Below are positions 19,847 to 23,204 of a stretch of 32,146 bases of DNA, piece by piece (within the stretch, counting starts at the first letter, position 1; every line of letters starts with the position of its first letter). The DNA comes from Rickettsiales bacterium (GTDB taxonomy: Bacteria > Bacteroidota > Bacteroidia > Cytophagales > Cyclobacteriaceae), in assembly GCA_002729235.1 (NCBI GenBank), contig PBTY01000046.1:1-32146 (forward strand), written 5' to 3'. A model generated the notes under the pieces. That model saw only the letters and a list, made by a program, of their open reading frames with translations. It had not been told where the DNA came from and searched no databases. A program made the translations under genes and the position numbers.

Positions 19847-22222
19847 CTATTCATATTTCAAACTATCTGCAGGGTTGCTTGTCGCTGCCCGCAGGGCGTG
19901 ATATCCAGTTGTAAGAATGGTAATCCCTCCAATGACTATCAATACCAGTCCATAGAGTAGATAATTCATCTCCACATGATACTCGAACGTATTGAGCCAT
20001 TCATTCATGAAATAGTAGGCAATTCCAAAAGCAGGAACTGCACCAATGAAGACCAGGATCAAGAAGTCTTTTACAAGTAATGAAACTAGTCCTGATACTT
20101 CAGCTCCCAATACTTTTCTTATGCTAATTTCTTTGGTTCGCTGTTCTGCTATGAAGGAAGCTAAACCGAGTAATCCCAGGCATGAAATAAATATCATCAT
20201 TACTGAGAACCCAAGAAACAAACTACCTCGCAACTGATCAGCTTCATATTGTTCCATAAAATCCTGATCTAAGAAACTATATTCGAAAGGCTTATTCGGA
20301 AATACATCCGTCCAGGCCTGCTCTATAGATCTGATGCCTTCGTCCAGACCACCACTGATTTTGATCAAAGCATTGGAATTATTGAGTGAGGGAACGAACA
20401 ACAAGGCTTCAATAGGGTCATAGAGTGATCTTTGGTGAAAATCTTTCACAACCCCTATTACCTTATGGAATTTTGTGCTATCACGATCGAATTGGAAGCG
20501 CTTCCCAATAGGATTGTCCCACCCCATTCGGGCTACCATGGCTTCATTGACCATGACCGCTGATGCCGTATCAGTAGGGAATTTGGGATCAATATTTCTT
20601 CCTTCGGATAGCTTGATGCCTAATACTGGAACAAAGTCATAATCTATACCATAGGAATCTATACCATAAGTTTCCATGACTCCATCATTGGTTTCCACAG
20701 ACATTACATTTTTATCATACCCACGACCAGGTGTTGTGATTGCAGTAGCTGCATCCTTGATATTAGGGTCTTGAAGTAATTTGTTTTTCAAGACAGGCCA
20801 CTTATCACGTGCCGCACGATTGTCCAATACCACGCGAACTACCCGCTCTTTATCAAAACCAAGGTCTTTGTTTCTCAGGTATTGCATTTGATCATAAATG
20901 ATTAAAGTGCCTACCAGCATGAAGATTGAAATCGAGAATTGTACTCCGACAAGAACACTGCGCAAGATCTTGTTTCCTGATTTACTTCCCTTGCCTTTGA
21001 GAACTGATGCTGGTTTGAAAGCGGACAAGTAGAAGGCTGGGTAGCTACCACTCAGGATTCCTGTAATAAGTAGCATTACAGCAATTGCACCGAGCACCAT
21101 TGGATTCAACAGACTTCCAATGTTCATCGAAGTTTGCAATTGTGAATTGAATACTGGTACCAAAATGAGAACCAATAACAAACTGATCAAAAGTGCAACA
21201 ATGGTGAGGAGTATGGACTCAGACATGAACTGTCGGATCAACATTCCTCGCTGCGCACCCATCACCTTGCGAATTCCTACCTCCAAAGCTCGTTTCATCG
21301 ATCGAGCGGTTGATAAGTTCATGTAATTGATACTGGCGATTAGGATAAGGAAAATAGCTACTGCACCAAAAATGTAGATGTACTTGATGTTGCCAAGTGG
21401 CTCAGGTTCCCCCTGGAAAGTAGAGTATAGGTGGATGTCCTGAATATTGATCATTTCATACTTGATCTTAATATCAAACTGATCGAATATCGTTGCTACA
21501 TACTTGGTGATGATGGTTTCATTCAACTTGGTTTCTACTGCTTTTGGATCTGTACCTTCTTGAAGCATAATGTAGGTGTAGATACCAAAACCTCCCCAGC
21601 TCTGTGAGTTATTACGATCTACAGTACTGGCAGAGATCATTGCGTTTGGTCGTATATGGTTGTTAGGAGAAAGGTCCTTGTAAACACCGGTTACTTCCAG
21701 AGAGTTGTTGTCCGTTTTAAGGATCTCACCAATTGGATTCGCTCCTTTAAAAATCTTGTCAGCCATGGTTTGACTGATCACAATAGAGTTTGGGCCTTCT
21801 AATGCAGTTGCTGGATTTCCAGAAATGAATTCATAATCGAACACATTAAAAACCGTGGAGTCCACCATGAAGATTTTTTCTTCATAATAGTTGATATCAT
21901 TTCTTTCAAAGCGAGTTCTTCCATTTCCAATGAAACGAGTGTATTGCTCTACTTCGGAGAATTCATTTTTAACTGTTCTTCCAAGTGGAAGCTGAGTCGT
22001 CGTCCAGCGGAAGGAATTATCTGGTTCACTAATGTCAGAGGATATTCTATAAATTCTGTCTGCTTTGGAATGCTGTTGATCAAAGCTTACCTCATGATGG
22101 AGATAGAGGACGATGAGCAAACTGGAGACTATTCCTATGGTTAGTCCTAAGATGTTGAGTGTGGTGTATCCCGGCTGACGCAGTAGGTGCCTTACCGTGA
22201 TTTTGAGATAATTTTTGATCAT
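19847..22222 (-). CDS. ABC transporter permease, FtsX/MacB type (two FtsX domains)
   Basis: A 791-residue inner-membrane protein. TM1 is at about 22-42 (LNILGLTIGIVSSLLIVLYL). A periplasmic MacB-PCD domain spans about 45-275, then a first FtsX domain about 282-410 (IFGAVAIFLILIASINYMNL, KRALEVGIRKVMGAQR). A further TM lies at about 425-445, then a second periplasmic domain and a second FtsX domain from about 670 (EQRTKEISIRKVLGAEVSGL). These long permeases in Bacteroidota work with a separate ATPase; none is in the window. MacB-like proteins move lipoproteins, peptides or toxins, or act as mechanotransmitters. It is a single gene with its own terminator. Confidence 0.95.
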   Translation of the reverse strand: MIKNYLKITVRHLLRQPGYTTLNILGLTIGIVSSLLIVLYLHHEVSFDQQHSKADRIYRISSDISEPDNSFRWTTTQLPLGRTVKNEFSEVEQYTRFIGNGRTRFERNDINYYEEKIFMVDSTVFNVFDYEFISGNPATALEGPNSIVISQTMADKIFKGANPIGEILKTDNNSLEVTGVYKDLSPNNHIRPNAMISASTVDRNNSQSWGGFGIYTYIMLQEGTDPKAVETKLNETIITKYVATIFDQFDIKIKYEMINIQDIHLYSTFQGEPEPLGNIKYIYIFGAVAIFLILIASINYMNLSTARSMKRALEVGIRKVMGAQRGMLIRQFMSESILLTIVALLISLLLVLILVPVFNSQLQTSMNIGSLLNPMVLGAIAVMLLITGILSGSYPAFYLSAFKPASVLKGKGSKSGNKILRSVLVGVQFSISIFMLVGTLIIYDQMQYLRNKDLGFDKERVVRVVLDNRAARDKWPVLKNKLLQDPNIKDAATAITTPGRGYDKNVMSVETNDGVMETYGIDSYGIDYDFVPVLGIKLSEGRNIDPKFPTDTASAVMVNEAMVARMGWDNPIGKRFQFDRDSTKFHKVIGVVKDFHQRSLYDPIEALLFVPSLNNSNALIKISGGLDEGIRSIEQAWTDVFPNKPFEYSFLDQDFMEQYEADQLRGSLFLGFSVMMIFISCLGLLGLASFIAEQRTKEISIRKVLGAEVSGLVSLLVKDFLILVFIGAVPAFGIAYYFMNEWLNTFEYHVEMNYLLYGLVLIVIGGITILTTGYHALRAATSNPADSLKYE

Positions 22223-22394
22223 TGTTAGTTTGGAGATTGATTGTAAGAGTAGACTTGATCAATCCGCAAATGGTTACAGAAAAGTGATTAGCGGTAGGTG
22301 TTTTAAGGGATTTTAACAGTACATGTGGATAACTAGGTGCACAAATATGGTATAGCAAGGTGTAAAAGTTGTGGGAAACCAGACCCCTAATTTA
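22223..22394. other. 5' flank of the ABC permease gene
   Basis: Together with the RNA candidate downstream this makes a 494-bp gap between protein genes. This part should carry the permease promoter on the minus strand. I see no convincing promoter boxes, ORF or hairpin. One DnaA-box-like 9-mer at 22324-22332 is probably chance. Confidence 0.4.
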
Positions 22395-22425
22395 TTGCAA
22401 ACGCAAAGGAATAGGTCTACCTTAG
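22395..22425 (+). promoter_or_regulatory. Bacteroidota-type promoter candidate ahead of the RNA candidate
   Basis: TTG at 22395-22397 and TACCTTAG at 22418-22425, separated by 20 bases. The second box matches the Bacteroidota -7 consensus TAnnTTTG at all fixed positions but one. Transcription would start near 22432, just before the first structured element. A single pair of this quality can arise by chance; its position ahead of a hairpin cluster and a terminator is what makes it credible. Confidence 0.45.
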
Positions 22426-22431
22426 AATTAC

Positions 22432-22659
22432 CAAATGAGGGATAGAAGTCGAGACGAAAGTCTCCACTTAAGAAGCAAAAGTTATTAGAGGCTACGGCCG
22501 ATTTTAGCGTGGCTGAAGGAAGTGAGAACGAAGAAGAATCTGGTATCCAGAAGAGGGCTTCGTAAAGGCATCAAACAGTAATTTGGCATTGAATGAGGGG
22601 CTACGGCCCAGCATAAAGTGAAAAGGGTGGATGTCCTGCATTGGATATCCACCCTTTTT
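22432..22659 (+). ncRNA. Candidate structured non-coding RNA (about 230 nt), unassigned
   Basis: No protein gene fits here, but the plus strand folds into several stable elements. These are GAGAC-GAAA-GTCTC (22451-22464, GNRA loop); GGC-TACG-GCC (22490-22499, UNCG loop); and ACGAAG/CTTCGT (22528-22533, 22558-22563), enclosing TCTGG-TAT-CCAGA (22539-22551) with purine-only internal loops. Also present are CAAA/TTTG (22572-22585), GGGC-TACG-GCCC (22598-22609, UNCG loop) and a terminator. Loops are of stable RNA type only when read on the plus strand. A promoter-like pair lies upstream and an opposing minus-strand terminator just downstream. It does not match tmRNA, RNase P, SRP or tRNA motifs I can recognise. 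A 17-codon ORF from 22435 is possible. A dispersed intergenic repeat is the main alternative. Confidence 0.5.
22621..22659 (+). terminator. Strong plus-strand terminator
   Basis: A 16-bp stem with arms 22621-22636 and 22643-22658 (core GGGTGGAT/ATCCACCC), a 6-base loop and a T-run 22655-22659. One pair is G-T on the plus strand (22633/22646), which becomes an A-C mismatch on the minus strand. The element therefore favours plus-strand transcripts, although no plus-strand protein gene precedes it. Confidence 0.8.
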
Positions 22660-22665
22660 GTATAT

Positions 22666-22697
22666 AAAAAAAGCAGAAAGCATAAGCCATCTGCTTT
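22666..22697 (-). terminator. Terminator of the coiled-coil protein gene
   Basis: 8-bp arms AAAGCAGA (22670-22677) and TCTGCTTT (22690-22697) with a 12-base loop. On the minus strand it runs into seven T (complement of 22666-22672). It lies 19 bp after the stop of the gene at 22717-23019 and back to back with the plus-strand terminator. Confidence 0.8.
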
Positions 22698-22716
22698 CGT
22701 AGAGACTTTCCACAAC

Positions 22717-23019
22717 CTAACGAGCCTCTACCTTTTCTTTGATGTTTTCCTTAATCCCATTTAGTCGTTTACTCATGACATCAGACATCTGATTGAAGGC
22801 TGAGTTTAGATAGTCAAAGGATTCTTCGCGTTCTTCCAAAAGACTGTCATAAAGGAATTTTACTGTTTCTTTTGATTTTTCCAGATTGTTTAGATCATTT
22901 TTCCAAATCTCTTTCTGAGATTTGGAAAAGGACTTAGCTGAATGTTCTAACTCATTGATGCTTTCAAAAATCTGTTCTATTTTTTCTTTTGCTTCTAATC
23001 TAATTTTATCTCGATTCAT
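22717..23019 (-). CDS. Unrecognised 100-residue coiled-coil protein
   Basis: A highly charged, all-helical cytoplasmic protein (KIRLEAKEKIEQIFESINEL, KEIWKNDLNNLEKSKETV) with heptad-like hydrophobic spacing along most of its length, so probably a homo-oligomeric coiled coil. ATG 23019 is chosen; the open frame reaches 23238 but the added residues have a different, Cys/His-rich composition and would run into the divergent transporter gene. A terminator follows. No family recognised. Confidence 0.7.
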   Translation of the reverse strand: MNRDKIRLEAKEKIEQIFESINELEHSAKSFSKSQKEIWKNDLNNLEKSKETVKFLYDSLLEEREESFDYLNSAFNQMSDVMSKRLNGIKENIKEKVEAR

Positions 23020-23204
23020 AACATTAACATGTTGATAATCAAATATATAACATGAGTTGTTATTGAATTGTTTAAAATATTTCGAAATAATTGTTGTCAA
23101 ATCCGTTAACAATTTGAAATGTGACTGAAGTGCAAGGATGTAATCCACAATTTTACGATACTTGCATGTGAATGACTGACCTAAAATCTCAACTGTAGAA
23201 TTGC

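Follow-up and report, generated by a model that had tools for sequence, protein, structure and literature searches.

A structured non-coding RNA class of Bacteroidia with a DnaA-box-like array upstream of its promoter

The present analysis identifies, in the 494-bp gap of the window, that is, of the whole 32,146-nucleotide stretch of DNA studied, a free-standing plus-strand gene that has a predicted promoter and terminator of its own; the structured non-coding RNA that it encodes measures about 230 nt. Comparison with relatives places this RNA as a short member of a wide class in Bacteroidia that spans a roughly threefold size range, and upstream of the promoter lies an array of repeats resembling the boxes bound by DnaA, the initiator protein of chromosome replication. 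The best reading, to which we assign a probability of about 60%, is that of a structured RNA that would act in trans and whose transcription would be controlled by DnaA.

The predicted transcript extends from about 22429 to 22660 on the plus strand and carries, in silico, a covarying fold (Table 1). Each sequence feature named in the original prediction was found in its place, including GAGAC-GAAA-GTCTC (22451-22464), GGC-TACG-GCC (22490-22499), the stem-loop at 22528-22563, GGGC-TACG-GCCC (22598-22609), the 16-bp terminator stem (22621-22636 with 22643-22658, one G-T pair, followed by a T run) and the promoter-like TTG/TACCTTAG pair, which homologues retain. Two of its details fared differently: the paired GGCTACGGCC hairpins, proposed as borders of a repeat core, were not shown to flank a repeat unit, and the 36-nt stem-loop, present in the sequence, is not supported as a conserved element, being either poorly aligned or not conserved. 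The original prediction mentioned neither the array nor the differences in size among members of the class.

Table 1. Features of the RNA locus and its flanks, in window coordinates; box starts are given relative to the -7 box
Feature	Position	Strand	Details and basis
DnaA-box-like 9-mer array	22324-22378	+	one orientation, 11-12 bp period; sequence; same spacing in homologues
Array box	22324	+	TGTGGATAA, exact; start -94; score 8/8
Array box	22336	+	GGTGCACAA; start -82; score 7/8
Array box	22348	+	TGGTATAGC, very weak; start -70
Array box	22359	+	GGTGTAAAA; start -59; score 7/8
Array box	22370	+	TGTGGGAAA; start -48; score 6/8
Predicted Bacteroidota-type promoter	22395-22425	+	TTG 22395-22397; -7 box TACCTTAG 22418-22425 (TAnnTTTG with one change)
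RNA core closed by helix P1	22431-22586	+	22431-22436 with 22581-22586; 96.3% of cells paired; both-side changes in 3/6 pairs
Hairpin P2	22451-22464	+	100% of cells paired; both-side changes in 3/5 pairs; GNRA loop
Branched arm P3	22465-22524	+	22465-22469/22520-22524, 22474-22476/22512-22514, 22481-22484/22505-22508, hairpin 22490-22499
Stem-loop P4	22528-22563	+	purine internal loops, variable interior; window fold; helices 6-7 paired in 46.6% and 58.7% of cells
Conserved AACAGTA	22574-22580	+	faces GAGGGATA (22437-22444), beside P1; homologue comparison
3' hairpin P5	22593-22614	+	C(UACG)G loop; 87.1% of cells paired over 40 sequences; both-side changes in 12/13 pairs
Intrinsic terminator of the RNA gene	22621-22660	+	16-bp stem and T run; terminators follow homologues too
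Terminator-like hairpin with T run, of the convergent ORF	22666-22697	-	sequence
MacB/FtsX-type permease	19847-22222	-	flanking gene
ORF ending at 22717		-	flanking; 173 aa from GTG, or about 100 aa from ATG at 23019
AI-2E family transporter		+	flanking gene

On the plus strand, the stretch 22424-22662 folds at -87.2 kcal/mol compared with -56.2 +- 4.6 for shuffled sequences (z -6.7, 0/200). The minus strand likewise folds better than its own shuffles (z -5.3), so the strand was not chosen by folding energy alone; the plus direction follows from the promoter and terminator together with loops that homologues conserve. Of 23 short forms, 14 retain a GNRA loop in P2, and the loop of P5 reads YNMG in 36 of 40 sequences, with a C-G closing pair in 31 of those. 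A combined sigma-70 and terminator scan missed both the Bacteroidota-type promoter and the terminator of the RNA gene, the latter, we suppose, owing to pairing of its T run within the stem. Downstream, a Pfam search of the minus-strand stretch 22717-23049, which holds the convergent ORF of about 100 aa (22717-23019), returned no match; a 97-aa counterpart occupies the same place in G002. Also on the minus strand, positions 22641-22720 gave a weak Rfam match to the Clostridioides SQ1002 RNA (22.1 bits against a gathering score of 128), probably caused by the back-to-back terminator hairpins.

A BLASTN search over 98 genomes, the window's own among them, recovered real homologues in two genomes of the same genus, G002 (75% identity) and G005 (69%), and one in another genus, G008; the window's own genome holds a single copy (E <= 0.001). 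All three homologues retain the promoter, P1, P2, the CUACGG hairpin and the terminator, and the permease adjoins the RNA in G002 and G005, the remaining neighbours being different. A covariance model built from these four sequences, R1, matched 93 of 245 family genomes at E <= 1 and, counted from the rows listed, 37 genomes at E < 0.001. Among named genomes, a pattern scan returned 29 loci, with Marinoscillum pacificum, Ekhidna lutea and several Roseivirga among the carriers. One chance match (L005), lying inside a sigma-factor-like reading frame, was set aside, and two from the named-genome scan (L066, L074) also look like chance, with no 3' end in the stretch read.

Medium-sized forms align well (alignment A4, n=22), and their model, R2, extended the class to other families; a still longer form occurs in Roseivirga. 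When the P1 5' strand was paired with the 3' motif, the hairpin and a T run, this yielded 75 rows of 216-715 nt, 25 of them 216-241, 36 of them 259-327 and 14 of them 453-715 nt, the lengths being approximate as the end was taken at the first T run found. What members have in common is the closing helix P1, the motifs GAGRGAUA and AACNGUA, the 3' hairpin and the terminator; the interior varies. In family f25, P1 resembles, by eye, GCAGUU/AACUGC rather than CCAAGU/ACUUGG, with GAGAGAUA and AACUGUA retained, which looks like compensation of the whole helix.

Some long forms are modular in appearance. Those of G124 and G198 show, by eye, a recurring AAAGG-stem-GAAACGG-GNAA-CCGCAGAAGUG module, and four others (L112, L139, L140, L111) carry a repeated three-way-junction-like module ending in CCGCAGAAGUG; at these loci, the two model matches found per locus look like opposite ends of a single RNA some 610 nt long. 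In four contigs (G115:C54, G127:C1, G211:C13, G172:C91), two or three RNA copies are spaced by about 0.7-9 kb.

The breadth of the class is best described by R3, a model of the 3' domain that includes the window and sequences of families f23, f31 and f67 first found by R2, with f44 and f82 outside it; like R1 and R2, it matches its own source sequences by construction. Within the family, R3 matched 146 of 295 genomes and 46 of 84 genera, with one to four matches each; across the class Bacteroidia it matched 33 of 395 genomes at E <= 0.01, seven of them from the window's family, and fell below E 1e-5 in five other families (f23, f31, f44, f67, f82). R3 found no match in half of the family genomes, among them two of the six genomes of the window's genus (G001 and G004), and such absences are soft, whole-genome searches over 40 genomes having used stricter filters.

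Covariation supports the fold across size forms. Among 23 short forms including the window (A5), 78.0% of 906 cells pair and 32 of 41 pairs change on both sides; double-change cells number 137 compared with 57.5 +- 7.2 after shuffling (0/500), and each slid register scores far lower. Helices 3-5 of the branched arm P3 pair in 76.8-87.9% of cells of this alignment, with both-side changes, and the consensus fold also backs its second segment. In the medium forms (A4), 95.3% of 988 cells pair, with 99 double-change cells against 27.5 +- 5.1, and in the 3' domain of 40 elements (A6), 87.1% of 518 cells pair, with 177 against 59.1 +- 9.1, the count of pairs with double change in A6 not being distinctive (reached by 107 of 500 shuffles). 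The controls were shuffles, whose statistics ignore phylogeny, and slid registers, in which all three alignments are favoured by the origin of their structures, RNAalifold on the same alignments for A4 and A6 and the window fold for A5. By these measures, covariation is strong in all three alignments. No conserved reading frame was seen in the window RNA, whose longest ORF has 19 aa, or in 74 homologue rows, and a coding gene was rejected: the median ORF over those rows is 30 aa compared with 32.6 in shuffles, and the short-form lengths spread over all three classes modulo 3.

None of the 4227 families of Rfam 15 matched the window above its curated threshold. At E values up to 10, there were 11 weak matches in the gap, five in 16 loci of short or medium form and five in 10 loci of long form, all below gathering scores. 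A literature search by title and start of abstract, which for the most part left subscription journals, and also bioRxiv preprints, outside its range, found no description of such a Bacteroidia RNA class; on this evidence we regard the class as new, allowing for a prior description. As such, the original prediction of a plus-strand gene for an undescribed structured RNA has been borne out by homologues within the genus, elsewhere in the family and in further families, by abundant compensatory changes in A4, A5 and A6, by the want of any Rfam match in the window and in the 26 further loci scanned, and by the lack of a conserved frame; the genome comparison it had proposed gave a single copy in the own genome and homologues in relatives. 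It had offered two sub-readings: an RNA gene is supported, and a dispersed RNA-like repeat, with one copy here and one to four in relatives, is not.

The promoters of the class agree with the TTTG/TAnnTTTG form described for the primary sigma factor of Bacteroidota (PMC7366714), and in 65 cases counted over 74 upstream stretches the TTG begins 22-24 bp upstream of the -7 box. The pattern that selected these stretches required P1 and both motifs in addition to the -7 box, and their sharing of these parts is therefore in part by construction; the stretches count L093 and L125 twice, with a 2-base shift, and thus represent 72 elements. The array played no part in their selection. A wider listing of 92 upstream stretches includes some spurious ones. 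In 12 of the 74, a palindrome TTACA-N8-13-TGTAA spans the -33 region within the last 45 bp before the -7 box (L037, L041, L065 and similar) and is possibly a second operator; the window carries TTGCAAACGCAA at 22395.

Upstream of these promoters, the DnaA-box-like repeats recur at a nearly fixed distance. TGTGGATAA is the complement of the DnaA box TTATCCACA. Boxes were scored at 7/8 letters with a relaxed motif, [TG]GT[GT]NATAA, and with a strict box, TGTGNATAA. With the relaxed motif, at least one box lies within 40-130 bp in 73 of 74 stretches (L108 having none) and at least two in 71, at a mean of 3.54 per stretch compared with 0.51 in dinucleotide shuffles. Box starts peak at -48, -59, -71, -82/83, -91 to -94, -105 and -107; the array most often closes with a box whose start is at -48 (46 stretches), and 53 stretches have one at -48 or -49. 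Successive spacings are 11 or 12 bp in 105 of 189 cases, and clustering the stretches to 59 groups leaves a mean of 3.42 boxes and 74 of 144 such spacings. A pair 11-12 bp apart occurs in 58 stretches with the relaxed motif and in 37 with the strict one, and a perfect TGTGNATAA is present in 49; a DnaA-regulated promoter would be expected to carry tandem boxes TTATNCACA with gaps of 2-3 bp, a form from which families f31 and f44 deviate. The exact TGTGGATAA occurs 41 times in array orientation versus once reversed. A triple-box pattern was run on 12 genomes picked for the regularity of their arrays and matched in 11 of them; judged by coordinates, each of its 20 matches falls at the RNA gene, and the reversed pattern has none.

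The window's own array is degenerate: one box is exact, the others are weaker, and the strict genome-wide pattern does not match it. In the window's genome that pattern matched at two places elsewhere, against three for the reversed control, and missed the window array itself. A likeness to rRNA promoters was considered and rejected: upstream of the 16S gene in L213, the sole SSU match in four genomes, no array is seen by eye.

These patterns suggest, without proving, a link between replication and the RNA. In E. coli cells, DnaA is reported to favour box pairs with a gap of 2 or 3 bp (PMC11317965), and the 11-12 bp periods of the array correspond to just such gaps. That DnaA is the protein that binds the array is, we infer, probable; it would bind as an oligomer on boxes 2-3 bp apart. 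With only about 16 bp between the end of the last box and the -33 element downstream of it, bound DnaA would control RNA polymerase at the promoter. Given such binding, activation is somewhat favoured, repression being equally conceivable. The RNA level would then track free DnaA, i.e., the replication state or growth rate. The RNA itself would act in trans, its fold serving as a scaffold or a platform for binding, and we lean towards the conserved terminal domain, formed by the P1 motif and P5, as the part that does so. As the interior differs freely between genera, a long antisense stretch is not expected to be its main mode.

The most serious rival retains the same RNA gene and assigns its array to an oligomeric activator other than DnaA that has a related direct-repeat site, making the RNA a growth-phase or housekeeping RNA unconnected to replication. 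In two families, f31 and f44, the repeat has drifted to TGTTNATAA in place of TGTGNATAA, which departs from the usual DnaA box, and f82 (L270) has a poor array, so that another protein may bind; the restriction of the triple array to the RNA in 11 of 12 genomes is also what a dedicated regulator would give. Against this stand the canonical boxes, of which the 74 stretches contain 41 exact copies, and gaps equal to those of E. coli DnaA, and we consider such an activator a credible minority explanation, at perhaps one chance in a handful.

An unlikely variant of the trans-acting role is that of a conventional antisense sRNA which pairs with mRNAs by an exposed loop. Lengths of 216-241 nt, those of the window's size group, are common for bacterial sRNAs, and the gene is intergenic and terminated; yet the best-conserved parts face each other beside P1 or form a hairpin loop, and the interior, where a seed site might lie, is poorly conserved.

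Less likely again, and by a clear step, is an array that serves to titrate or recharge DnaA, as datA and DARS do in E. coli, with the RNA as a passenger. Its box clusters do lie away from the GC-skew minimum, but their distance to the promoter is nearly fixed across three size groups and several families, and the RNA itself is under strong selection.

The skew data also bear on the idea that the locus is the chromosome origin, oriC, with the RNA participating in initiation. Skew was taken from twenty 20-kb samples on each of three long single contigs (about 250-kb sampling) and from one scaffold. The minimum of G234 lies at the contig ends and its RNA at 2.19 of 4.88 Mb, i.e., about 2.2 Mb away; in G127 the minimum is near 0.9-1.2 Mb and the RNA at 0.085 Mb, about 0.9 Mb away. 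G155 is less clear, with a minimum near 0.8-1.0 Mb and copies at 0.55, 0.56 and 4.87 of 5.04 Mb, two of the three being 0.2-0.45 Mb off the minimum, which is not decisive at this sampling. On the Roseivirga scaffold (G715), both flanks of the RNA have negative skew, with no minus-to-plus change at it and a plus-to-minus change, in the terminus sense, 50-100 kb away. An origin, for which the DnaA-box-like array would speak, was rejected on these skews, coarsely sampled over three chromosomes and a scaffold, and on the presence of up to four matches per genome, and its probability is minimal. No greater weight attaches to a dispersed repeat or part of a mobile element, in keeping with which genomes hold one to four matches, at times close together, but against which stand the single copy in the window's genome, varied and ordinary neighbours, and searches with no match in plasmids and phages (BLASTN, one query each) and no real one in viral contigs (two patterns), the sole viral match (L254) resembling coding sequence.

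What is unusual is a conserved RNA class with strong covariation and a threefold size range that has no entry among 4227 Rfam families. The boldest reading the data permit is one in which the replication cycle has an RNA output driven by DnaA: a Bacteroidia-wide class of 0.2 to 0.7 kb, with the chromosome's most regular DnaA-box array at its promoter, would be the RNA output of the replication initiator and would couple the initiation cycle to growth or feed back on DnaA via the folded terminal domain. This proposal is speculative, and we would sooner bet against it than for it. If DnaA does command the promoter, it would represent a new kind of link between replication and RNA regulation in a major phylum.

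Among known RNAs, 6S RNA is a single long rod or hairpin with a central bubble, unlike the multibranched consensus folds of the class described here. Its models RF00013 and RF01685 gave no match to the RNA and matched in 0 of 6 genomes, RF01685 being silent in every control genome and RF00013 in the Bacteroides control. It shares with the present class the nature of a structured RNA, one described as a housekeeping RNA and detected in Bacteroides (PMC7366714). The large, elaborately folded OLE, ROOL and GOLLD RNAs (PMC12286853) have a parallel in the long forms, which reach about 560-715 nt, but none of these families matched in the window, in the 16 short or medium loci or in the 10 long ones. 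ModT, the raiA motif RNA of Clostridioides and relatives, is likewise described as a widely conserved structured RNA that acts in trans and is tied to growth transition (PMC11706538); it belongs to Bacillota and Actinomycetota, and the Rfam scans here gave no match to its family. CcnA of Caulobacter, a non-coding RNA under a cell-cycle master regulator, offers a likeness to the proposed DnaA control, but by the available account it is alphaproteobacterial, located at the origin, presumably activated by CtrA, and directed at the ctrA and gcrA mRNAs (PMC8959179). Finally, the double DnaA boxes of E. coli at purH, polA and DARS2 are, in the available text, pairs rather than arrays of up to six and do not precede an RNA gene, and they share with the array described here the tandem arrangement at distances of 2 or 3 bp (PMC11317965).
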